Below are positions 26,243-39,692 of a DNA stretch of 64,000 bases, piece after piece. Positions within the stretch are counted from its first letter, which is position 1. Every line of letters begins with the position of its first letter. The position numbers and the translations under genes were made by a program. Location of the stretch: assembly GCA_024434115.1 (NCBI GenBank), contig QMIT01000004.1:341073-405072 (forward strand). The letters are read 5' to 3'. Under the pieces are notes generated by a model. The model was not told where the DNA came from, searched no databases, and saw nothing but the letters and a program-made list of their open reading frames with translations. The stretch is from Chloroflexota bacterium (lineage in GTDB: Bacteria; Chloroflexota; Anaerolineae; Aggregatilineales; J027).

Positions 26243-26273
26243 GAAAAAAGGACGGGGCAACCTGTCCTTTTTG
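26243..26273. terminator. Bidirectional terminator between gdhA and the receiver gene
   Basis: AAAAAGGAC (26245-26253) pairs with GTCCTTTTT (26264-26272). A-run and T-run on either side serve the two convergent genes. Confidence 0.85.
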
Positions 26274-26300: not shown

Positions 26301-28493
26301 TTACGCCATACTCTGTTCGCTGTAATAGCGGATAAAGCGTTCAATGGCTTCGGGTTCCAACAGACGACCCGGCGCGGTAATGCTGTAGCTGCTGGCCCAT
26401 ACCGACCCATACACCTCGGGGTCTTGGCCTAGCGCCTCCAACAAGTAGTGGTTGGTCTCGCCCATCAAGATGTCCATCATCTCGGCAGGCTGCGCTTTGA
26501 CCGGAATTTCGATGTGAACATTTACCCAAAACTCCCCTACCCGAACATCCACAAAATCCCAATCCTGTTCACTGGCGACTTTTTGCAGCCAATAGCCGAG
26601 GGGTTCGCTGTAATCCACTAAGCGGATATTTGGCGCTTGCAATAACCACAAACACGCAAAACCCGCATAACTTCCCGGCTCGCGCACAGTCGGGCCAGTC
26701 TTCACCTCGCGCAGTCCAGCCGGTGCTTTTAGGTCGGTGGGGCGGCTGTGTTGGGTAGGGACATCTTCCTCAATAATCGTCGCTGCCTGTTCGACCCTTT
26801 CCGGTGAGGCTGGCACATGCACTTCATCCGTATGGGCGGTTTTCTCAGGAACCAGCATCAAGGCCTCGGTCAATTGGGCCACCTGCTTGCGAATCATGCG
26901 CACCGGCAAATCCCCAGAGAATACCAATGTCAGCGTCAAATCATCCACACTGCGCACGCTGAACAACAGGCATTGCCCATAACCTTCCAGATGCAGATAG
27001 CGCATTCGGGTATTATTTTCGCCCTCACGGTGCCATGCCATCAACACCGCTTCGACAATTTCGTGCCAAATATCGCTCGAAAAATTGCCCGTGCGCCCTA
27101 CTGGATAATCATGATGCGTGAGCAAAATCCCCAGCGCTGAGTTCTCTAACGAAAGCTGGGTGAGTTGTAGTGCGGCCCGTGCAATAACGTCCATCTCCCC
27201 CAACATTTCCTCCACCGCCGCCTCATCAACGCGCAGTAATTCGGTTTCAGGTAGGGTTGCATTCTGATCGGGCAGCACCATCGCCTGTGTAACGTCTTCT
27301 AGGGTGGTAGGGACTAATTCGGCCTCGTCTATCACCGTCTTCATACTGTCGGTGCTGGTCTTGGAAAGCACCGCATATAAACGTGGGTCTTGGTCACTTT
27401 CGGCTTCGGCAAGCGCTTCCAGCAGTTCCACATTAATCGGGCCAGAATCATGACTTGGCCCTTGCAGCCACTCAATTTCTTCCCGGCTCAACGGGTCGGG
27501 GATTAAATCAAATTCGGGCAGCAAAATAGGCTGAGTCACCGCGAGATAGGGCGTCGTGTCATATTCTTTCGGTTCAAATAGGTCAGGGTCTATCGGTTGG
27601 AGGCGCTCCCCTGTTTTTTCTAATAGCTCCTCAACCGTTGTTGGGACGGGATGCAGCCCCTTGAGGAGTTCGCCCAGATAAGCCCGTTCTTCTTTGGTGC
27701 GGGGTTTTAACCATGAGGGCAAGGGGCGAATTTGAGGCTGTCCGCTCTGCTGCGAAAGCTGTTCAATACGCATCAGGACTGTATCCAATGGCGTAGCTTC
27801 ATTTTCGGTAATACGCAGTGCCGCCGCCGCCATCAAGCCCGTGTTTTCGCCTGACTCTACCGCTCGATGGGATAGTGGACTGCCAGTGGATTCAGGTGAA
27901 GTGGGCAGCATTTGTTGACTTTCGTTGGCTTCATGGCCTCCCAAAATCTCCGCGACGACTGCCGGGTCTTGTAATAATTCTAGCACCCGCCCCACCGTTG
28001 CACCTTCATCAATCGGCGGTTCTGGGTCAATCGCTTGCATCATCGCGGCCTCAACCACCGTCTCGATTGGGACAACATTATCTCGGCGGATAGAAGATTC
28101 ATTGGCCTTGTTGCGTAGATTGGAGTAAAAATCATAGCCCTGCTTGATGGCGTGTTCAATCAATTGGGCTAAATCTCGTGCGACATAAGGTTTATGGGCA
28201 TATCCCTGTACATCCAACGCGGGCACACGGTCGGGGTCACTGGGCGTACTACCCGATACAATGACGGGCAAATCTGGTTGGCGTACCCGCATCCCCAAAA
28301 TGAGTTCGGCAGGATCGCCATGCTCAAGGTGCAAATCCACCACCGCAACTGAATACCGTTGTTCATCCAATGCCGAAAGGGCTGGACGTGAACGGCCCAT
28401 GGCCCGGACATCAAAATCTAGTTCCTCAAGGGCTTTTTTCAGCCGCAGAATAAACCCAATATCCGAATCTACAATCAAAACCCGCCGTGTCAT
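26301..28493 (-). CDS. Response-regulator receiver fused to a roadblock-like domain and a dead IS200/IS605 TnpA-like domain
   Basis: 730 residues from ATG 28493, with AGAGG 7 bases upstream; the longer frame has no homology. Residues 1-120 are a receiver domain with phospho-acceptor D53 in VVDLHL, S80 and K101. Residues 125-427 are acidic and low in order. Residues about 434-548 look like a roadblock/LC7 fold. Residues 608-730 align with IS200-type TnpA: the strand ending CLWL, the helix LGYWLQKVASEQ, the strand WVNVHIEIP in place of the D-H-x-H catalytic strand, then MGETNHYLLEAL, VWASSYSITAPG and EAIERFIRYYSEQ. The first His of the HUH pair is Asn and the catalytic Tyr aligns with Phe, so nicking is unlikely. 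Probably a domesticated nucleic-acid-binding module. Confidence 0.7.
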   Translation of the reverse strand: MTRRVLIVDSDIGFILRLKKALEELDFDVRAMGRSRPALSALDEQRYSVAVVDLHLEHGDPAELILGMRVRQPDLPVIVSGSTPSDPDRVPALDVQGYAHKPYVARDLAQLIEHAIKQGYDFYSNLRNKANESSIRRDNVVPIETVVEAAMMQAIDPEPPIDEGATVGRVLELLQDPAVVAEILGGHEANESQQMLPTSPESTGSPLSHRAVESGENTGLMAAAALRITENEATPLDTVLMRIEQLSQQSGQPQIRPLPSWLKPRTKEERAYLGELLKGLHPVPTTVEELLEKTGERLQPIDPDLFEPKEYDTTPYLAVTQPILLPEFDLIPDPLSREEIEWLQGPSHDSGPINVELLEALAEAESDQDPRLYAVLSKTSTDSMKTVIDEAELVPTTLEDVTQAMVLPDQNATLPETELLRVDEAAVEEMLGEMDVIARAALQLTQLSLENSALGILLTHHDYPVGRTGNFSSDIWHEIVEAVLMAWHREGENNTRMRYLHLEGYGQCLLFSVRSVDDLTLTLVFSGDLPVRMIRKQVAQLTEALMLVPEKTAHTDEVHVPASPERVEQAATIIEEDVPTQHSRPTDLKAPAGLREVKTGPTVREPGSYAGFACLWLLQAPNIRLVDYSEPLGYWLQKVASEQDWDFVDVRVGEFWVNVHIEIPVKAQPAEMMDILMGETNHYLLEALGQDPEVYGSVWASSYSITAPGRLLEPEAIERFIRYYSEQSMA

Positions 28494-28683: not shown

Positions 28684-30447
28684 TTAGCCGCGAGCAGCCA
28701 ACTTGGCAGCCATATCAATGCTGTACGCACCCCAGTGAGGACCACCGAACAGGCCGTCGGTCTCAAATGGGCCAGTGTACCATGGTTTGAACAGGCTGAA
28801 GGCCGAGCGCAGGAAGATCGGCGCAATTGGGAATTCACCCTCTTCACCAAAGAATGCTTCTTCAACTTCCGCATACAGTTGTTCACGAATCGCTGGGTCA
28901 CTTTCGCGGGCCGCCTGATCAATCAGGTCGTCAACTTCGCTGCAGGGGCGAATGAAGCTGTAATCAACATTGCAGGACAGCACGTCATGCACCCAGTTGT
29001 TGGCGTCACCATAGTCAGGACCCCAGCCGAGCGTCCAAGCATTCGGACGATCTTGGGTGGGAGTATCGGCGTCAGTGACTTCCAACAGAACCGAGAATTC
29101 GAGTTGTTCGGTGTTGAACAACGCGGGATCGCAGCCAAGATATTCTTCAGCAGCGGCGGCCCAGAATTCGACCCATGTACCAGCGCCCGTGTAGGCGACG
29201 AGGTCAATATTCGGGAAGCCTTCGCAGTTGGGATAACCAGCCGCCTCGAGTTGGGCAACCGCGTATTCGGGGTTGAAACCAACACCGACTTCATTGATGG
29301 GTGGCGCACCAGCCATGCCGGGCGGGGTGAAGTGAATCATCGGCACACCACGACCACCACGAATTTGTTCTACAAACGCGGTGCGGTCAATGATGGCGCT
29401 GAAGGCACGGCGGGCGTTCACATTGTCGAACGGCGCTTTGTCATGGGCATAGCCGAAATAGAACACGGCGAGGTCGAAGATTTGCAAAACTTGTTGAGAC
29501 AACACTGGGTCACTCAACACGTTTTGGATTTCAGCAGTGGGTACGGCAGTCGCATCCAGTTGGTTGTCAAGGAAGAGGGCATACGTCGTGCCGCCGTCTT
29601 CAATGATGGTCTGGTTGATGACTTCGATGTTGCCGGTGCCGCTGAACAGGTCAGCCGGGGTGGCTTCATTACGCACAAACACGCGGCGCACACCACGTGT
29701 AATTTCGTCCACGAAGAATGGGCCATTGGTGATGATGTTGCCGGGGGCAGTCCATTCGTCACCGAATTCTTCAATGGCTTCTTGTGGCACAGGGCGGATC
29801 ATCCACATGGGGGTCATGGACAGGAAGAAACCAGCCGCGAATTGCAGTTCAACTACGACGGTGGTGTCATCCGGGGCGCTGACCTTGGTGGTGTCGCCGA
29901 AGACGAGGTCATCGGTGGCGACGTCAGAGGAGGTCTGATTCACGACATCGCAGCCCGCAATTACAGTGGCGGCAATCGAGCCATAGTAGCTGCCCAAACG
30001 GGGGTCACAGGCACGCTTCATGCCATACACAAAGTCACCCGCAACAACAGGGCGCACGACGGTGGCGGTATCGCTCGCCGGGTCCCATTGCATCCAGTTG
30101 ACATCGGTGCGGAGGTTGAACGTCCAAGTCAAACCATCGGCGCTGGCTTCCCAAGTCGTTGCCAGTTCGGGGGTAACCGCACTGGTGATTGGGTCATAGT
30201 TGGTCAGGCCGAGGAACAGATTTTCAATAGGGGCAATCGAGACAGTGTCAGTCGCCTGTGCCGGGTCGAGCGAGCTAATTTCGCTGCTGTCGGCGGTGTC
30301 GCGGGTGACAGGTTCATCCTGACGATATTGAGCGGTAATGGTAATCTCGCTGTCGGCAGCGGCGGCAAAGCCGGTCGGCAGGAGGGCAACCACCATCGTC
30401 AGCACCACGGCGACGACTGGGATCATCCGAAAGACTTTCTTTGACAT
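28684..30447 (-). CDS. Family-5 (peptide-type) solute-binding protein, array copy 1
   Basis: 587 residues from ATG 30447, with GGAGGAG 8 bases upstream. A Sec signal peptide (RMIPVVAVVLTMVVALLP, cleavage near FAAA) has no lipobox cysteine. The body is the SBP_bac_5 fold: TWTFNLRTDVNW near the start, the hinge and ligand-binding regions, and PNAWTLGWGPDYGDANNW near the C-terminus. Six cysteines (in ACDPRL, GCDVVN, NCEGFP, GCDPAL, LSCNVD, RPCSEV) recur at the same places in all six paralogues, suggesting three disulfides. It would bind oligopeptides or similar solutes outside the membrane for an ABC importer, but no permease or ATPase is encoded in this window. Most downstream member of the array. 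Confidence 0.85.
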   Translation of the reverse strand: MSKKVFRMIPVVAVVLTMVVALLPTGFAAAADSEITITAQYRQDEPVTRDTADSSEISSLDPAQATDTVSIAPIENLFLGLTNYDPITSAVTPELATTWEASADGLTWTFNLRTDVNWMQWDPASDTATVVRPVVAGDFVYGMKRACDPRLGSYYGSIAATVIAGCDVVNQTSSDVATDDLVFGDTTKVSAPDDTTVVVELQFAAGFFLSMTPMWMIRPVPQEAIEEFGDEWTAPGNIITNGPFFVDEITRGVRRVFVRNEATPADLFSGTGNIEVINQTIIEDGGTTYALFLDNQLDATAVPTAEIQNVLSDPVLSQQVLQIFDLAVFYFGYAHDKAPFDNVNARRAFSAIIDRTAFVEQIRGGRGVPMIHFTPPGMAGAPPINEVGVGFNPEYAVAQLEAAGYPNCEGFPNIDLVAYTGAGTWVEFWAAAAEEYLGCDPALFNTEQLEFSVLLEVTDADTPTQDRPNAWTLGWGPDYGDANNWVHDVLSCNVDYSFIRPCSEVDDLIDQAARESDPAIREQLYAEVEEAFFGEEGEFPIAPIFLRSAFSLFKPWYTGPFETDGLFGGPHWGAYSIDMAAKLAARG

Positions 30448-30501
30448 TTTTAAGCTCCTCCTAGAGAGCATCTTAAAACTTTTTATGTATTCAACTCATC
30501 A

Positions 30502-30530
30502 TTTGTCCGGCCTTCTGCCCCGGCAGCATG
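30502..30530 (-). promoter_or_regulatory. Conserved 5' leader motif, copy 1
   Basis: On the plus strand TTTGTCCGG, a 5-base gap, TGCCCCGG then AGCATG. Nearly the same string occurs at 34921-34950, at a similar distance (55-56 bases) upstream of copy 3. The CCGG blocks can pair with each other. Role unknown. Confidence 0.45.
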
Positions 30531-30990
30531 GGTAAGGCGTCGAGTGCGGCTGTTGCTCCTTTCTTAAAATACGTGGCATTTGGCTTCCAATGCGTTGTAC
30601 ATACTTACTTGCCAGGACAAGTCAAGAATACAACCAGTTGGGTTGGGGACTCTTTGTGGAGAAAGGGAGCGTAGTGGGGAATGGGAATGGAAAGAGGGCA
30701 ACAAGCTGTCCCCGCAATTCCAAAATGAACTTTCCATGGCCCCATCAAAATAACTATTTCTCACAAAAGTAGGAAGCACAAGTCCACTAAATTTAAATTT
30801 GTACTACAGGACTCACTCGATGCTGATACAAATTATAGCGATGTACACCGCTAGAATGCAAATGGTTCGCCAGATTAGAAATTTTTAATCTTGATCGTTT
30901 TTTAATAAAAGGTTTAATTCAAGCCATAAACCAAATAATGTGAAGATTTCTTTTACATCAACCTTGCTGCTTTAATGAGAGCATAGTGAA

Positions 30991-31026
30991 TAAAAATCCC
31001 CTCCACCAATCAATGGCGAGGGGATT
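30991..31026 (-). terminator. Intrinsic terminator after solute-binding protein 2
   Basis: AATCCCCTC (30995-31003) pairs with GAGGGGATT (31018-31026); read on the minus strand it is followed by TTTTTATT. Confidence 0.85.
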
Positions 31027-31070
31027 GTAGGTGAGATAAACCCACCCGTTATTATTTTTAGTTGGATTGG

Positions 31071-32849
31071 TTATTCACCACGCGCCGCTAACTTGGCCGC
31101 CATATCAATGCTGTACGCACCCCAATGTGGGCCACCAAATAGCCCGTCGCTTTCAAATGGGCCAGTATACCAAGACTTAATCAAATTGAAGCTCGTATCC
31201 ATGAAGATAGGCGCGATGGGGTAGTCCCCATCTGGCCCAAAGAAAGCCTCTTCAATTTCGGCATACAGTTGATCGCGCACCGTCGGGTCAGATTCACGTG
31301 CCGCCTCGTTAATGAGGTCATCTACTTCGGTGCAAGAGCGCATAAAGGCATTATCGGCGGTGCAAGACAACACATCATTCACCCAATTGTTGGCGTCGCC
31401 ATAATCTGGCCCCCATCCCAACGTCCAAGCGTTCGGACGGTCTTGGGTTGGTGTATCGGCATCAATGATCTCTAACAGCACGGAAAATTCAAGCTGCTCG
31501 ACATTAAACAAAGAGGGGTCACAGCCGAGATACTCCTCAGCAGCAGCAGCCCAAAAATCCGCCCAATTGCCAGCGCCGGTATAAGTTGCCATATTGACGT
31601 TCGGAAAGCCTTCACAGTTGGGGTAGCCCGCTGCTTCCATTTCGGCCTTCGCATATTCGGGGTCAAACCCGACACCAATTTCGTTGATAGGCGGCGCATG
31701 AGCCATACCGGGTGGAGTGAAGTGAATCATGGGAATGGCGCTGCCACCCAAGACCTGATCAATGAAGGCTTGCCGGTCAATCACCGCTCCAAAAGCACGC
31801 CGCGCGTGTTCATTATCGAACGGTGCCTTGTCATGACCAAAAGCGAAATAGAACACCGAGAGGGCAAAAATCTGAATCACCTCTTGGGAAAGTTCAGGAT
31901 CCCCCAAAATATTTTGCAGTTCCGCCGAAGGTACCCCAGAGGCATCTAGTTGATTATTGAGATAGAGCGAATAGATGGTGCCGCCGTCTTCAATGACCTG
32001 CTGATTGATGATCTCAATATTGCCCGTGCCGCTAAACAGGTCGGCGGGTAGGTTTTCATTACGGATGAACACACGTCGCACACCACGAGTCAGTTCATCT
32101 ACGACATAGGGGCCATTCGTCACAATGTTACCGGGGGCCGTCCATTCATCACCGAATTCCTCAATGACTTCCTGTGGCACGGCACGCAGCATCCACATGG
32201 GGGTCATCGAGAAGAAAAAGCCCGCTGCAAATTGCAATTGGACTACGAGTGTTGTGTCATCGGGCGCACTTACAGCAATGGTATCGCCATAAACCAGATC
32301 ATCCGTCACCAACTCACTGGGTGTCTGATTAACCACATCACAACCCTTGATAACCTTCGCGGAGATCGTGCCATAGTAACCACCGAGACGGGGGTCGCAG
32401 CCGCGTTTAATGCCATACACAAAATCGCTTGCTACCACCGGACGAACAATGGTTGCACTGTCACTGGCCGGGTCCCATCGCAGCCAATTGACATCGGTCC
32501 GCAGGTTGAACGTCCATGTCACATTGTCGGGCGCAATCGTCCATGAGGAAGCCACTTCCGGATTGACCGCACTGGTAATCGGGTCGTAGTCCGTCAGGCC
32601 GAGAAATAGATTCTCGATAGGGGCAATCGAAACTTGATCCGAAGCAATCTGTGGGTCGAGGGAGCTAATCTCGCTGCTTGCCGCCGTGTCACGCTGCACG
32701 GGGACATCTTGGCGATAGAGCGCCACTACTGTGACTTCCGCATCGCTAGCAGATGCGAAACCGACGGGCAACATTGCCACGACTAGCGCCAACACCAGTA
32801 ATGAGGCTGGCATTAGGCTAATCACTCTTTTTACCACTTTTCTATTCAT
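31071..32849 (-). CDS. Family-5 solute-binding protein, array copy 2
   Basis: 592 residues from ATG 32849, with GAGGAGAG upstream. Signal peptide VISLMPASLLVLALVVAML with cleavage near FASAS and no lipobox. It is collinear with copy 1 over its full length, including the six shared cysteines, the TWTFNLRTDVNW start motif and the GGPHWGAYSIDMAAKLAARGE end. Differences cluster in the segment around 250-330, which lies in the ligand-facing domain of this fold, so the copies may differ in specificity. It is flanked by its own terminator and a 249-base upstream spacer; expression independent of neighbours is likely. Confidence 0.85.
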   Translation of the reverse strand: MNRKVVKRVISLMPASLLVLALVVAMLPVGFASASDAEVTVVALYRQDVPVQRDTAASSEISSLDPQIASDQVSIAPIENLFLGLTDYDPITSAVNPEVASSWTIAPDNVTWTFNLRTDVNWLRWDPASDSATIVRPVVASDFVYGIKRGCDPRLGGYYGTISAKVIKGCDVVNQTPSELVTDDLVYGDTIAVSAPDDTTLVVQLQFAAGFFFSMTPMWMLRAVPQEVIEEFGDEWTAPGNIVTNGPYVVDELTRGVRRVFIRNENLPADLFSGTGNIEIINQQVIEDGGTIYSLYLNNQLDASGVPSAELQNILGDPELSQEVIQIFALSVFYFAFGHDKAPFDNEHARRAFGAVIDRQAFIDQVLGGSAIPMIHFTPPGMAHAPPINEIGVGFDPEYAKAEMEAAGYPNCEGFPNVNMATYTGAGNWADFWAAAAEEYLGCDPSLFNVEQLEFSVLLEIIDADTPTQDRPNAWTLGWGPDYGDANNWVNDVLSCTADNAFMRSCTEVDDLINEAARESDPTVRDQLYAEIEEAFFGPDGDYPIAPIFMDTSFNLIKSWYTGPFESDGLFGGPHWGAYSIDMAAKLAARGE

Positions 32850-32985
32850 AGGTTCTCTCCTCAAATCAATTACTATTCAATAGAAGCATGAAAAATTGTA
32901 CTGAATACCCTGTTTTGGCACAAAAGGTTCAGTTCGTTTAAAATTTTCTCATAAAAGTGAAAAACTCTAGCCCCTCCCCAAAAAC

Positions 32986-33082
32986 ACAAATCCCCCCGGT
33001 GCAGCAAATCTCGCGCGGAGGGATCGGCGGTTAGAGTCCCCTACCCTGCCGTCATCATCTACGGGCGATGGCAGGGTTAGGG
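32986..33082 (-). terminator. Tandem hairpins after solute-binding protein 3
   Basis: Two hairpins follow the minus-strand stop at 33099. The first met, TACCCTGCC (33042-33050) with GGCAGGGTTA (33070-33079), has a long strong stem. The second, TCCCCCCG (32991-32998) with CGGAGGGA (33016-33023), is followed by T-rich sequence on the minus strand. Confidence 0.7.
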
Positions 33083-33098
33083 AATCACTTAGTTCAGT

Positions 33099-34865
33099 TT
33101 ATTCACCACGTGCTGCCAATTTCGCAGCCATGTCAATGTTGTAGGCACCCCAGTGAGCGCCACCAAACAGACCGTCGCTCTCAAATGGGCCGCTGTACCA
33201 CGGTTTCACCAATGTGAAGAACGAACGTAGATAGATCGGGGCAATTGGGTATTCACCTTCTGCGCCAAAGAACGATTCTTCGATCTCGGCATACAGTTGG
33301 TCGCGTACCGCTGGGTCACTTTCGGCAGCGGCCTGATTGATCAGGTCGTCTACTTCGGTGCAGGGACGCAGGAAGGCGTTGTCCGAGGTGCAGGACAACA
33401 CATCGTTCACCCAGTTGTTGGCGTCACCATAGTCGGGACCCCAGCCGAGCGTCCAAGCATTCGGACGATCCTGCGTGGGAGTGTTGGGATCAACAATTTC
33501 CAACAACACGGAGAATTCAAGTTGTTCAACATTCAACAACGACGGGTCACAGCCGAGATATTCTTCAGCCGCAGCCGCCCAGAAGTCCGTCCATGTACCA
33601 GCACCCTGATAAGCGACCATGTCAATCGCCGGGAAGCCTTCGCAGTTGGGATAACCCGCCGCTTCCATTTCGGCAACGGCGTATTCTGGGTCAAACCCAA
33701 CGCCGATTTCATTGATGGCCGGGGCATGAGCCATGCCGGGCGGGGTGAAATGAATCATCGGCACACCACGACCAGCCAACACCTGTTCAATGAACGCTTG
33801 GCGGTCAATGATGGCGCTGAAAGCACGACGTGCGTGAACATTGTCAAAGGGGGCTTTGTCATGACCAAAACCGAAATAGAACACGGTCAGGTCGAATATT
33901 TGCAGCACTTCTTGGGACAATGTGGGGTCAGACAACACGTTTTGGATTTCTGCCGCAGGCACACCGGAGCTATCAAGTTGACTGTTTTGATACAGCGCAT
34001 AGATTGTACCGGCGTCTTCAATCACGGTGGTGTTGATGACTTCTACATTGCCAGTCCCACTGAACAGATCAGCAGGCAAGGCTTCGTTGCGAACATACAC
34101 ACGACGCACACCACGAGTAATTTCTTGCACAAAGAATGGGCCGTTCGACACGATATTGCCGGGGGCGGTCCATTCGTCACCGAATTCTTCAATGACTTCT
34201 TGTGGAACAGCACGAAGCATCCACATGGGGGTCATGGAGAAGAAATAACCAGCGGCGAATTGCAGTTCGACCACGAGTGTCACGTCATCGGGGGCGCTGA
34301 CGGCAATGGTTTCACCGTAAACGAGATCATCCGTGACGTTTTCGGCAACTGTTTGGTTGACCACATCGCAGCCCTTGATAACCTTAGCGGAAATCGTACC
34401 GTAATAACCACCCAAACGGGGGTCGCAGCCGCGCTTAATGCCATAGACAAGATCACCTGCCACCACCGGGCGCACGACAGCGGCGGTTTCGGTTGCCGGG
34501 TCATAGCGCATCCAATTGACATCACTGCGCAGGTTGAACGTCCATACCAAACCGTCGGCGCTCACTTCCCATGAAGTCGCCAATTCGGGGTTAATCGCGC
34601 TGGTGATTGGGTCATAGTCTGTCAGGCCCAAAAACAAATTTTCAACCGGGATGATTGAAACGCTGTCCGAAATGATCGCTGGGTCAAGGGAGCTAATTTC
34701 ACTCTGGCTTGCCCCGTCAATCGTAACAGGCGTATCCTGACGATATTGGGCCACAACGGTAACAGTGGCATCTTCCGCAGCCGCAAAGCCCGTCGGAAGT
34801 AATGCAACCACCAGTGTCAGCACAATCGCTGCGACTGGGATGAGTCGAAAAGTGGATTTAGACAT
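33099..34865 (-). CDS. Family-5 solute-binding protein, array copy 3
   Basis: 588 residues from ATG 34865, with AGGAGG upstream. Signal peptide RLIPVAAIVLTLVVALLP, cleavage near FAAA, no lipobox. It shares the first residues (MSK-x-x-F-R-x-I-P-V), the full fold and the six cysteines with copy 1, and also a 5' leader motif, so copies 1 and 3 probably arose from one duplication that included the leader. A good minus-strand promoter is placed about 330 bases upstream. A long open frame on the opposite strand is a reading-frame shadow. Binding specificity is unknown. Confidence 0.85.
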   Translation of the reverse strand: MSKSTFRLIPVAAIVLTLVVALLPTGFAAAEDATVTVVAQYRQDTPVTIDGASQSEISSLDPAIISDSVSIIPVENLFLGLTDYDPITSAINPELATSWEVSADGLVWTFNLRSDVNWMRYDPATETAAVVRPVVAGDLVYGIKRGCDPRLGGYYGTISAKVIKGCDVVNQTVAENVTDDLVYGETIAVSAPDDVTLVVELQFAAGYFFSMTPMWMLRAVPQEVIEEFGDEWTAPGNIVSNGPFFVQEITRGVRRVYVRNEALPADLFSGTGNVEVINTTVIEDAGTIYALYQNSQLDSSGVPAAEIQNVLSDPTLSQEVLQIFDLTVFYFGFGHDKAPFDNVHARRAFSAIIDRQAFIEQVLAGRGVPMIHFTPPGMAHAPAINEIGVGFDPEYAVAEMEAAGYPNCEGFPAIDMVAYQGAGTWTDFWAAAAEEYLGCDPSLLNVEQLEFSVLLEIVDPNTPTQDRPNAWTLGWGPDYGDANNWVNDVLSCTSDNAFLRPCTEVDDLINQAAAESDPAVRDQLYAEIEESFFGAEGEYPIAPIYLRSFFTLVKPWYSGPFESDGLFGGAHWGAYNIDMAAKLAARGE

Positions 34866-34920
34866 TTTGGCCCCTCCTGGAGAGCGCAATTTATCTTAAG
34901 AATCGAATTTTTTGGGTGGG

Positions 34921-34950
34921 TTTGTCCGGTCAATTGCCCCGGAAAGCATG
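34921..34950 (-). promoter_or_regulatory. Conserved 5' leader motif, copy 3
   Basis: TTTGTCCGG, then TTGCCCCGG and AGCATG on the plus strand, matching 30502-30530. Confidence 0.45.
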
Positions 34951-35194
34951 TCGAAAGTTGAAAGGGTGGCGGCATAGATCTCTCCTGATTATGAATGGGC
35001 CTCGCATCGGGTGAGGTTTTACACAACATATACATAGGGGGCAGTTTGGAAGTTCAAGGAAATTTTGAGGGAATCGCATCGAGCGAATTCGGTTCCTAGA
35101 AACAAGCCTTGTTTCCAAACCGCACACCCGTCAAGTGAATTGCAGGGCAACCCAATGGGATGTTGTTAAAAACTCACTGATGCCATTAATGAAG

Positions 35195-35222
35195 ATTATA
35201 GGAAGGGTTCACCTATTGTCGA
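35195..35222 (-). promoter_or_regulatory. Sigma-A promoter of solute-binding protein 3
   Basis: On the minus strand TCGACA (35222-35217), a 16-base spacer and TATAAT (35200-35195). It predicts a leader of about 320 bases. Confidence 0.6.
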
Positions 35223-35308
35223 GAAATATCAGAGATTTCTAACGTCTCTATGGTTTTGTTAAATCGTCGAACCAGATGCAATTTTCGGGCGTACATGCAA
35301 TTAGAAAT

Positions 35309-35341
35309 AAAAAGAGGGTTTGCCAGGACAGCCCTCTTTTT
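35309..35341 (-). terminator. Intrinsic terminator after solute-binding protein 4
   Basis: AAAAAGAGGG (35309-35318) pairs with CCCTCTTTTT (35332-35341). The loop contains GCCAGGACA, also found in the terminator loop after copy 5. Confidence 0.85.
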
Positions 35342-35463
35342 GCCCCATAAAAGGCAAAAGGAGTAGGTGTGTTATGTCCCTACTCCTCCTCAATTACAGT
35401 GCTGGGGCCTGCCTGTCCAATGTCAGGCTAAAGTTCCGAGCATTCCAGCCATCAGCGTTGTGG

Positions 35464-37227
35464 CTATTCGCCGCGTGCTGCTAACTTCGCGGCCATATCA
35501 ATCGTATACGATCCCCAATGAGCGCCGCCAAACAACCCATCGGTTTCAAATGGGCCAGTGTACCACGGCTTAAAGAGACTGAACGCGGAACTTAGGAACA
35601 ACGGCACAATCGGGTAATCGCCATCTGGCCCAAAAAACGCCTCTTCGATTTCCGCATACAGTTGGTCACGCACCGTCGGGTCGGTCTCACGGGCGGCCTG
35701 ATTCAAAAGATCATCCACTTCGGTGCAGGGGCGCATGAAATTATAGTCTGCCGTGCAAGACAGCACATCGTTGACCCAATTATTGGCATCGGCATAATCC
35801 GGCCCCCACCCCAACGTCCACGCATTGGGGCGATCTTGGGTAGGTGTCTCGTTGTCAATGATTTCCAGCAGTACCGAAAATTCAAGCTGCTCGGTATTAA
35901 ACAGGGTAGGATCACAGCCAAGATATTCTTCGGCAGCGGCGGCCCAAAAATCGGCCCAATTGCCCGCCCCTTGATAGGCCGCGATATTGATATTGGGGAA
36001 ACCTTCGCAACCGGGATAGCCCGCCGCTTCTAGTTCAGCAACAGCATAATCGGGGTCGAAACCAACGCCGATTTCATTGATGGCAGCGGCATGAGCCATG
36101 CCGGGCGGGGTGAAGTGAATCATCGGCACACCCTGTCCACTGGCAACCTGCTCCACAAACGCCTGACGATCCACAATCGCGGCAAAGGCCCGACGTGCAT
36201 GGACATTATCAAACGGCGCTTTGTCATGGGCAAACCCAAAATAATAAACACTCAAGGTGAAGATTTGACGAACCTGCTGCGACAATTCGGGGTCGGCCAA
36301 TACATTTTGCAGTTCCGCTGGGGGCACACCCGCCGCGTCATGCTGATGATTGAGATACAGAGCATAGGCTGTCCCAGCATCTTCAATCACGCTGTAGTTG
36401 ACCACTTCAAGATTGCCGTTGCCGCTGAATAGGTCTAAAGGCAGGGCTTCATTCCGCACATAGACCCGCCGCACCCCGCGTGTAATTTCATCCACAAAAT
36501 AGGGGCCATTGGTGACGATGTTGCCGGGGGCTGTCCATTCGTCGCCATATTCTTCAATGGTTTCCTGTGGAACGGCCCGCAGCATCCACATGGGGGTCAT
36601 GGAGAAGAAATAGCCCGCAGCAAACTGTAATTCGACTATCACCGTCACATCATCCGGCGCACTGATTTTGACTGTATCGCCAAAGACCAGATCATCCGTC
36701 GTGGCTTCGGCACTGGTCTGATTCACAATATCGCACCCCGCGATCACTTTGGCGGCCACTGAACCGTAATAGTTGCCGAGGCGACCATCACAGGCCCTTT
36801 TGATGCCATAGACAAAGTCGCCTGCCACCACCGGGCGCACAACTGCGGCGGTTTTGCTGGCGGGGTCATAGTGCATCCAATTGACATCTGAGCGCAAATG
36901 GAATGTCCATGTCAGACCATCTTGGCTCACTTCCCAACTGGTCGCCACTTCTGGGTTGACCGCGCCTGTTACGGGGTCAGAATCGGTCAGGCCCAAAAAT
37001 AGATTTTCAATCGCGGTGATCGAAAGTGCGTCGCTGGCAATGCCGGGGTCAAGTGAACTGACCTCATCTGGGGATGATGTATCACGAGACACAGGGACAT
37101 CTTGGCGATAGAGCGCCGCGATGGTGACGGTGCTGTCGGATGCCGAAGCAAAACCTACCGGCAACAGCGCGACCACCGTTGTCAAAACAACTATCCATAC
37201 GGGCAACCATCGAATTTTTGAAGTCAT
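35464..37227 (-). CDS. Family-5 solute-binding protein, array copy 4
   Basis: 587 residues from ATG 37227, with AGGAGG 9 bases upstream; a TTG two codons earlier is possible. Signal peptide WLPVWIVVLTTVVALLPV, cleavage near FASAS, no lipobox. Same fold, six conserved cysteines and C-terminal GGAHWGSYTIDMAAKLAARGE. The conserved NYDP or DYDP segment of copies 1-3 reads DSDPVTG here and DSDPITN in copy 5, suggesting that copies 4 and 5 are closer to each other. A minus-strand TATAAT at 37357-37352 is a likely -10, giving a leader of roughly 115 bases. Confidence 0.85.
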   Translation of the reverse strand: MTSKIRWLPVWIVVLTTVVALLPVGFASASDSTVTIAALYRQDVPVSRDTSSPDEVSSLDPGIASDALSITAIENLFLGLTDSDPVTGAVNPEVATSWEVSQDGLTWTFHLRSDVNWMHYDPASKTAAVVRPVVAGDFVYGIKRACDGRLGNYYGSVAAKVIAGCDIVNQTSAEATTDDLVFGDTVKISAPDDVTVIVELQFAAGYFFSMTPMWMLRAVPQETIEEYGDEWTAPGNIVTNGPYFVDEITRGVRRVYVRNEALPLDLFSGNGNLEVVNYSVIEDAGTAYALYLNHQHDAAGVPPAELQNVLADPELSQQVRQIFTLSVYYFGFAHDKAPFDNVHARRAFAAIVDRQAFVEQVASGQGVPMIHFTPPGMAHAAAINEIGVGFDPDYAVAELEAAGYPGCEGFPNINIAAYQGAGNWADFWAAAAEEYLGCDPTLFNTEQLEFSVLLEIIDNETPTQDRPNAWTLGWGPDYADANNWVNDVLSCTADYNFMRPCTEVDDLLNQAARETDPTVRDQLYAEIEEAFFGPDGDYPIVPLFLSSAFSLFKPWYTGPFETDGLFGGAHWGSYTIDMAAKLAARGE

Positions 37228-37351
37228 CTGCAAGATCCTCCTGAGTTGAATGAATGGGATTGGCTTGAGGACTCACTTGCTGTAAAACGGGGTACGCAGA
37301 TTTTATGCGGAAACACGGGTGAAGGTTGTAAAGATAGAGTTTTTCTGATCT

Positions 37352-37357
37352 ATTATA
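37352..37357 (-). promoter_or_regulatory. -10 box for solute-binding protein 4
   Basis: TATAAT on the minus strand, in an AT-rich stretch, about 125 bases before the ATG. No clear -35. Confidence 0.4.
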
Positions 37358-37459
37358 AAATTTGTTAAGATAGTGAACTTATGGCTCATTCAAGGGGTAC
37401 TTATGTAAAATTACCCCCTACCCTTTGCCCACCCGAAAAGTTCAAGTGGGTTTCTCCAA

Positions 37460-37492
37460 AAAAAGCCGAGAGGGGCCAGGACACCCTCTCGA
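37460..37492 (-). terminator. Intrinsic terminator after solute-binding protein 5
   Basis: CGAGAGGG (37467-37474) pairs with CCCTCTCG (37484-37491); the minus-strand transcript then reads GGC followed by seven T. The loop is GCCAGGACA-like. Confidence 0.85.
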
Positions 37493-37515
37493 TAAGGACT
37501 ATTTCTTTATTCTTT

Positions 37516-39276
37516 TTACTCACGCACGGCCAATTTCGCGGCCATGTCAATGGAATAGGCGACCCAGTGTTGTCCGCCAAATAAACCATCGGTCTCAAAC
37601 GGGCCAGTGTACCACGTCTTGAACAGCAAATAATCCGAACGTAGATACAGCGGAGCCATCGGGAATTCACCATCCGCCCCAAAGAACCCCTCTTCGATTT
37701 CGGCATACAGTTGGTCACGTACACCGGGGTCGCTAACCGTCGCGGCCTCCGCAATGAGGTCATCTACTTCGGTGCAAGGCCGTTTCATACGATTCGCAAC
37801 CGTGCAGGCCAATACGTCACCCACCCAGTTGTTGGCATCACCATAATCCGGCCCCCACAACAGCGTCCATGCGTTGGGACGATCTTCGGTTGGGGCATCA
37901 GAATCCGTGATTTCGAGCAGTACCGAGAATTCAAGTTGTTCGATAGTGAACAGGGTCGGGTCGCAGCCGAGATATTCTTCAGCCGAGGTTGCCCAAAATT
38001 CACCCCAGTCTCCCGCCGTCGTATAGGTGACGATGTTGATGTCGGGGAAACCTTCGCAGTCAGGATAGCCTGCTGCTTCTAGTTCAGCAGCGGCATATTC
38101 GGGGTCAAAGCCGACACCCACTTCATTAATCGGAGCGGCGTGGGCCATACCGGGGGGTGTGAAGTGGATCATCGGCACCCCGCGCCCTTCCTGCACCTGA
38201 TCTATGAAGGCTTGTCGATCAATGATGGCACTGAACGCACGCCGGGCATGAACATCATCAAACGGCGCTTTGTCGTGGGCAAACCCAAAATAGGACACCG
38301 CGAGGTCAAAAATCTGCCGCACTTCATTTTGATACTGCGGATCAGACACCACACCTTGCAATTCTGCGTCCGGGATGTTGGTCGCATCGAGTTGATTATC
38401 CAAATACAGCGCGAACTGTGTACCGAGGTCTTCAATCAACAGGGTGTTCACCACGTCAATGTTGCCAGACCCTTGCAAATCGGCGGGCAGGGCTTCATTG
38501 CGGACAAACACGCGGCGCACCCCACGAGTGACTTCTTGGACAAAATAGGGGCCGTTGGTGATGATATTGCCCGGTTGTGTCCATTCGTCGCCATAATCTT
38601 CAATCGCTTCCGCCGGGGTTGGGCGCAGTACCCACATCTGGGTCATCGAGAGGAAATAACCTGCCGCAAATTGCAGATTAATGACCACCGTCGAATCATC
38701 CGGCGCGGAGACTTGGGTGGTATCGCCATAAACCAGATCATCGGTAACTTGGTCAATTGGGCTTTGATTGACAACACTGCAACCCGCGATGACACCCGCG
38801 ACCACTGTGCCATAATAGCTGGCAAGGCGGGGGTCACAGGCGCGTTTGATGCCAAACACAAAGTCGCCTGCCACAACCGGACGAATGACAGCGGCGGTGT
38901 CGGCGGTGGGGTCATACTGCATCCAATTGACATCGGTACGCAGATTAAACGTCCATGTCAGGCCATCTTCACTCACCGTCCATGAGGTCGCCAATTCGGG
39001 CACAATCTGATTGGTGATGGGGTCGGAATCGGTCAGGCCCAAAAACAGATTTTCGACAGACGTAATTGAAATCTGATCTGACCCAATGGCGGGGTCAAGC
39101 GTACTGACTTCGCTGGTCGAGGCTGTATCGCGTTGCACGGGGACGTCTTGGCGATATTGGGCCGTGACAGTGATGGTGCTGTCTTCGGCGGCCACCAAAC
39201 CAACCGGAATGAAGGACACCAAGAGGGTTAGCAGTACGGCAATCACCGCACCTGCTCGCAAGGTGTTTTTAGACAT
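37516..39276 (-). CDS. Family-5 solute-binding protein, array copy 5
   Basis: 586 residues from ATG 39276, with AAGGAG upstream. Signal peptide RAGAVIAVLLTLLVSFIPV, cleavage near LVAAE, no lipobox. Fold and six cysteines as in the other copies (ACDPRL, AGCSVV, DCEGFP, GCDPTL, LACTVA, RPCTEV). It differs in several otherwise constant places, for example TQMWVLRPTPAEAIEDYGDEW for TPMWM-type, and WTLLWGPDYG for WTLGWGPDYG, which lie in the ligand-binding lobe of this family. It has a terminator and a 416-base upstream spacer with hairpins, so it is probably its own transcription unit. Confidence 0.85.
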   Translation of the reverse strand: MSKNTLRAGAVIAVLLTLLVSFIPVGLVAAEDSTITVTAQYRQDVPVQRDTASTSEVSTLDPAIGSDQISITSVENLFLGLTDSDPITNQIVPELATSWTVSEDGLTWTFNLRTDVNWMQYDPTADTAAVIRPVVAGDFVFGIKRACDPRLASYYGTVVAGVIAGCSVVNQSPIDQVTDDLVYGDTTQVSAPDDSTVVINLQFAAGYFLSMTQMWVLRPTPAEAIEDYGDEWTQPGNIITNGPYFVQEVTRGVRRVFVRNEALPADLQGSGNIDVVNTLLIEDLGTQFALYLDNQLDATNIPDAELQGVVSDPQYQNEVRQIFDLAVSYFGFAHDKAPFDDVHARRAFSAIIDRQAFIDQVQEGRGVPMIHFTPPGMAHAAPINEVGVGFDPEYAAAELEAAGYPDCEGFPDINIVTYTTAGDWGEFWATSAEEYLGCDPTLFTIEQLEFSVLLEITDSDAPTEDRPNAWTLLWGPDYGDANNWVGDVLACTVANRMKRPCTEVDDLIAEAATVSDPGVRDQLYAEIEEGFFGADGEFPMAPLYLRSDYLLFKTWYTGPFETDGLFGGQHWVAYSIDMAAKLAVRE

Positions 39277-39692
39277 CTAGGAACTCCTTTTGAATCGAAA
39301 TTGATGTAATTAGGCTATCAGTGGCGTGTCAGACCGCCTGATGGACAATGTCCCTCCTTAATTTCTATGCTCATACCTTTATCAACAAGGTGACTAAGCG
39401 CCTTGTTCTGTGGATACGGCTTGTGTCCCGGACGAAAAAATAGGCAACCTACATTGGGAACAAATGTAGGCTGCTGACCAATGACGAGTAGCGTGCTTTC
39501 GGATGGCTGATGCAACTCCAACGAAGTGTTTCGTCTACTCACCTTAATTACACCGAGAGTTGGAAGGGTGTTCGATTCTAAGAGGGGATTCACCAAAATA
39601 CTAATTCTTTGAACCTATTGTCATTCATGGGGATATTGTTAATTCCCCTCCACCCAACGGTTGGGGCAAGAGGGGAAAAGGGGAAGATTAGG
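39277..39692. other. Hairpin-rich leader of solute-binding protein 5 and terminator of copy 6
   Basis: 416 bases without a gene. Perfect hairpins AACAAGG/CCTTGTT (39384-39406) and CCTACATT/AATGTAGG (39448-39470) lie between the copy 5 start and the copy 6 terminator (39645-39675). They could be an attenuator or structured leader. No promoter with both boxes was seen. Confidence 0.5.
39645..39676 (-). terminator. Probable terminator after solute-binding protein 6
   Basis: CCCCTC (39645-39650) pairs with GAGGGG (39670-39675), with a nested CCCAACG/TTGGGG stem. The trailing minus-strand sequence AATTAACAATATCC is only modestly T-rich. Confidence 0.55.

Follow-up and report, generated by a model that had tools for sequence, protein, structure and literature searches.

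Gene and domain organization

The window, i.e. the complete stretch of 64,000 nucleotides that was analyzed, carries a gene for a protein of 730 residues in which a receiver (REC), a long linker, a Roadblock/LC7 domain, a second linker and a domain resembling TnpA, the transposase of IS200/IS605 elements, follow one another. An earlier sequence-only reading had described this ORF, and its coordinates and domain order were all found to be correct. We regard the identity of the parts as practically certain. The annotated features are as follows.

26301..28493 (-): gene for the REC-Roadblock-dead TnpA protein, 730 aa; ATG at 28493, TAA at 26301-26303
28143..28484 (-): receiver domain, residues 4-117; Pfam Response_reg with E 2.5e-9; D9/D11, D53, S80, K101
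27213..28142 (-): long low-complexity linker, residues 118-427 (~310 residues), with the recurring short motif I(R/K)PLPSW
26847..27212 (-): Roadblock/LC7 (MglB-like) domain, residues 428-549 (122 residues), from profile and model; found in 64 of 65 fused ORFs
26676..26846 (-): second linker, residues 550-606, separating the two modelled domains; the fastest-changing part (dN/dS 0.17)
26304..26675 (-): catalytically dead TnpA (Y1/HUH) domain, residues 607-730, from profile, model and residue alignment
26520..26528 (-): former HUH motif W656-V657-N658, both metal-binding His gone
26334..26336 (-): former catalytic Tyr, now F720, from the alignment column
26254..26268 (+): terminator-like stem-loop, from a consensus scan only and with a frequency not above that in shuffled sequences

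The stem-loop sits between the 730-aa gene (-) and a glutamate dehydrogenase-like gene (+), which converge. On its upstream side, the gene follows a gene for a family-5 solute-binding protein. The latter is the nearest of four similar ORFs (586-597 aa) which are arranged in tandem at 28684-39300 (-). A PSW/PHW motif occurs in the linker of 35 of the 65 fused homologues, and the I(R/K)PLPSW version from 27213-28142, found in about half of them, is a possible binding motif.

The C-terminal domain is homologous to TnpA

The C-terminus had been assigned to the TnpA (Y1 transposase) fold, with a comparison to the Y1 family by HMM and a structure prediction as the suggested check. When the window domain was searched alone, Y1_Tnp was matched with E 6e-4 to 7e-4 and 20.3 bits, which is below the curated Pfam cut-off of 23 bits for this family; NCBIfam IS200 was matched with E 7.5e-5. 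Y1_Tnp was matched by 21 of 22 homologues of the domain (best E 1.8e-19), and a profile of the 22 homologues retrieved all solved TnpA structures over the full length (E 9.4e-21 to 2e-11). The AlphaFold2 model of the domain is confident (pLDDT 92.9, pTM 0.85). A Foldseek search with this model returned TnpA chains in the top 29 positions, followed by a REP transposase, and the VIA Z was 15.4-13.6 for TnpA as compared to 8.9 for the next, unrelated chain.

Ferredoxin-like folds are common, and many unrelated entries were encountered at Z 7-9, as would be expected if the likeness to TnpA were only a convergent fold without kinship. This is contradicted by the profile matches to all TnpA structures (in round figures, E 1e-20 to 1e-11) and by the distance between Z 14-15 and 8.9, so that we give this explanation virtually no chance. 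The same E-values and the same gap in Z rule out a chance match of the fold. The family profile and the model both lead to TnpA, and the C-terminal domain is confirmed as a true homologue of the IS200/IS605 transposase.

The catalytic residues are lost

Residues were counted in an alignment of 90 fused homologues, among them L140, an unrelated fusion; 21 controls of transposase size, taken from the same phylum, were included. The HxH motif is present in 20 of the 21 control transposases and in none of the 90 fused homologues. The catalytic Tyr is equally found in 20 of the 21 controls; at this column, the fused homologues have Phe in 62, Tyr in 25 and Leu in three cases, the Tyr being nearly confined to the Anaerolineales group.

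In the window protein, W656 and N658 occupy the two HUH His columns, and therefore both His have been lost rather than one. The sequence-only reading, which had seen only the first His replaced by Asn (within WVNVHI), was thus right about the loss of the motif and underestimated its extent. H660, the remaining His of WVNVHI, stands two residues beyond the second HUH column in the larger alignment, which rules out that a better alignment would restore His-x-His. The replacement of the catalytic Tyr by Phe (EAIERFI) was borne out, as F720 is located at the Tyr column. With the match of the model to TnpA, this also upholds the view that both catalytic groups have disappeared from a fold that was kept.

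Roadblock and receiver domains

No Pfam model names the Roadblock region in the window sequence. A family profile searched against solved structures returned MglB/LAMTOR2 first, although with an E of 0.03, which is suggestive only. The predicted model (pLDDT 74) has the order helix, two strands, helix, three strands, helix, and its top matches are Roadblock, MglB and LAMTOR chains (Foldseek E 2e-4, Z 12.7). Residues 428-549 accordingly adopt a Roadblock fold in the prediction, while the match at the level of sequence is weak.

The fusion of the three domains is real and stable, as had been presumed. Roadblock is present in all of the 65 fused ORFs except L140, and REC in 57 of them, several of the remaining eight being cut by locus ends. 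The receiver of the window protein holds the acid pair D9/D11, the phospho-acceptor D53, S80 and K101. Control by phosphorylation, which had been part of the earlier interpretation, is therefore possible in the window protein, but it is not a trait of the family: of 57 receivers, just 14, including that of the window, have the complete site, which is degenerate in the other 43. Phosphorylation may thus matter in the window protein, but it is not the reason why this architecture has been kept.

The Roadblock domain could point to a polarity or signalling module resembling RomR/MglB, in which it would act on an MglA-type GTPase while the TnpA-like part would only dimerise or localise the protein. 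MglB is among the first Roadblock matches, small-GTPase-like matches exist in the window genome, and it is known that response regulators, MglB homologues and MglA-family GTPases can be linked: MglB-like Roadblock proteins were connected with two-component parts in a study on small GTPases (PMC4316618). However, no GTPase was recognised among the named neighbour genes, and the neighbour that is conserved is polA (see below). We consider such a module possible but rather doubtful.

Distribution and selection

Matches were found in 109 of 121 genomes from the order to which the window belongs, in most cases as one match within a long ORF of ~540-1440 residues. True transposases are encoded in these genomes by separate ORFs of 130-195 residues, with 11 copies in G345. 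The window genome has a single copy of the fused gene, and no match to the Y1_Tnp family was obtained in it. The multi-copy behaviour of a mobile element was not seen for the fused gene, which is represented by one long-ORF copy in nearly all genomes of the order. In a sample of the phylum, the strongly scoring long fused ORFs fall into the class of the window. A contig scan, which covered Chloroflexota and was queried with Anaerolineales-type members only, returned relatives labelled Anaerolineales, Anaerolineae and Chloroflexi.

Orthologues within the genus are 97% identical, with a dN/dS of 0.05 for the whole gene. By domain, the receiver is close to zero within the genus, Roadblock is at ~0.01 and the TnpA-like domain at 0.03-0.06. 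The TnpA-like domain is deeply diverged, with its W and Y core residues invariant. In a tree, all dead domains, whether fused or stand-alone, are found on one side of a branch that separates them from the transposases (support 98/89). A tree of the REC and Roadblock parts is compatible with one fused clade (AU p 0.156), with the unfused L264 placed among the fused proteins.

The loss of the catalytic residues might also reflect recent decay, i.e. a transposase that was accidentally fused to a signalling gene and is now a pseudogene. This is refuted by the single-copy occurrence in most genomes of the order, by the deep divergence and by the low dN/dS of the domain (0.01-0.06), which leave it extremely improbable. 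With the pseudogene reading ruled out, the fused gene is a widespread, single-copy gene of the Anaerolineae (Chloroflexota) under purifying selection. An IS200/IS605-type TnpA domain that is devoid of the HUH His, and in the window's order also of the Tyr, forms a conserved and vertically kept C-terminus of REC-Roadblock proteins in this class.

Charge of the TnpA-like domain

The TnpA-like domain of the window protein is acidic, like most of those from the same order, with a net charge of -11 and a pI of 4.3, whereas the control transposases average +6.8. Nine columns in which TnpA mostly has Lys/Arg were compared, and the window protein is basic at just one of them. The Anaerolineales domains are mildly basic (+2 to +5). 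The acidic charge and the loss of the TnpA basic columns make nucleic-acid binding by the window domain appear unlikely, although the net charge leaves room for a local basic patch that may exist.

The designation as a nucleic-acid-binding device is thus not supported for the window protein. The underlying model, in which the dead TnpA domain would still bind a nucleic-acid hairpin and would be switched by the phosphorylated receiver, can draw on the preserved TnpA fold, on the complete receiver site of the window protein and on the Anaerolineales domains, whose net charge is mildly basic and which have preserved part of the basic TnpA positions and, in most cases, the Tyr. It is at odds with the charge and the basic columns of the window domain and with the degenerate receiver sites of most relatives, and we consider it improbable.

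Association with polA

Neighbouring genes were clustered for 21 loci, and a single cluster was found to recur across families. It codes for full-length DNA polymerase I. In Anaerolineales, polA lies directly downstream of the fused gene and on the same strand at 64 of 79 loci. The same arrangement occurs at 28 of 51 other loci (10/13, 5/19 and 13/19), mainly from the window's order, and at five more of the 51 polA is located 2-4 kb downstream. Not counted among the 51 are L140, the stand-alone domains and a locus that offered no room. "Directly downstream" means that the polA frame starts within ~160 bp or overlaps; distances were taken between stop-to-stop frames and are hence approximate. 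The genus of the window is an exception, as its polA is on another contig and not beside the fused gene.

A class-wide search of the Anaerolineae also found REC-Roadblock proteins of 269-343 aa which lack the TnpA domain, and six of these 12 are encoded directly upstream of polA. They come from other families of the class (L259, L263, L264, L265, L270 and L272). As these proteins share the position next to polA, the pairing belongs to the REC-Roadblock core. Whether or not the TnpA domain is attached, genes for this core recur immediately upstream of polA, an adjacency that is new in the present analysis. A gene order can, however, persist without a shared function.

For the lineages with adjacent polA, it could be envisaged that the dead TnpA domain reads hairpins in lagging-strand ssDNA and recruits or restrains Pol I. 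The pairing with polA, the basic charge and the retained Tyr in these lineages agree with this, as does the activity of IS608 and ISDra2 TnpA on lagging-strand ssDNA (PMC6006769). But the TnpA-less proteins occupy the same position, so that TnpA is not the tie to polA, and the HUH motif is lost in the polA-adjacent lineages, too. We therefore judge this model unlikely. There is a similarly small chance that the transposase domain has been exapted for the control of Pol I by the cell: REC-Roadblock proteins would serve the Pol I of Anaerolineae as an accessory module, which would recognise ssDNA structures or a replication protein by means of the dead TnpA domain.

Proposed function

The explanation that we prefer, and to which we would give somewhat less than an even chance, is that of an exapted dead transposase domain which mediates binding or assembly within a Roadblock scaffold whose connection to Pol I is old. 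The protein would be a dimeric adaptor or scaffold, assembled by its Roadblock domain, which would also bind a partner NTPase or a similar protein. The receiver may tune partner binding in those proteins that have an intact phosphorylation site. A surface for dimerisation and for partner binding would be provided by the dead TnpA domain. The older job may have been connected with Pol I, either in the processing of the lagging strand or in DNA repair. In the lineage of the window, the gene would have moved away from polA, and the domain would have turned acidic. Since the gene is away from polA and the domain is acidic there, binding of a protein is likelier than binding of DNA and would be the most probable role.

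Comparison with known systems

The dead domain shares with the TnpA of IS200/IS605 elements (IS608, ISDra2, Sso IS200) the fold, the order of strands and helices, the aromatic core (Y, W, W-x-x-x-Y) and a profile match from end to end. It differs in that the fused family is devoid of HUH and mostly of the Tyr, is acidic in the window's order, is located behind REC and Roadblock, and is single-copy. TnpA_REP/RAYT proteins are likewise domesticated TnpA relatives outside insertion sequences, but they have an active HuH/Y core, which is dead in the fused family. MglB/Roadblock-LC7 proteins and their linked response regulators (RomR, conservons) resemble the fused protein in the Roadblock fold and in the tie between Roadblock and receiver; here, in contrast, both domains are on one chain together with a transposase-derived domain, and the gene is often beside polA. 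The REC-Roadblock proteins from other Anaerolineae families have the same first two domains and often the same place next to polA but no TnpA.

The classification of TnpA_Y1 proteins takes it that every member has an HuH/Y core with which ssDNA is cut; proteins of unexpected length were regarded as fusions or annotation errors in the underlying survey and were discarded (PMC6006769). In a review on the recruitment of mobile elements, the nucleases of IS200/IS605 are named as ancestors of CRISPR effectors, and the terms "response regulator" and "TnpA" are absent from its text (PMC8987985). No description of the REC-Roadblock-dead TnpA architecture was found in the open-licence literature, which does not prove its absence.

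Domesticated Y1 transposases have so far been discussed as working HuH/Y nucleases. Here, a dead one is a domain of a signalling protein across many families, an old transposase turned into a lasting part of the cell. The repeated place before polA, also in the TnpA-less relatives, suggests that a factor for signalling or assembly is associated with DNA polymerase I. Such a factor would belong to a large, mostly uncultured bacterial class, and this is directly testable.

Other proteins with TnpA-like domains

Stand-alone dead TnpA-like domains of 144-231 aa without HxH are encoded in Anaerolineales at L090, L091, L092, L093 (two copies), L094, L095 and L096. Four of the loci with stand-alone domains adjoin genes for an Mrr-like endonuclease and a TPR protein, in some cases followed by a gene for a 7TM sensor kinase.

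L140 (family f6) was rejected as a member of the family. Its 709-aa ORF (L140:1274-3400) represents a separate Y1 fusion with a squalene-hopene-cyclase-like stretch, no Roadblock domain and a C-terminal Y1_Tnp that has one His and the Tyr. Two short REC-Roadblock proteins from family f40 (L266 and L267), which have no nearby polA, carry a weak TnpA-like tail (28.8-31.2 bits).
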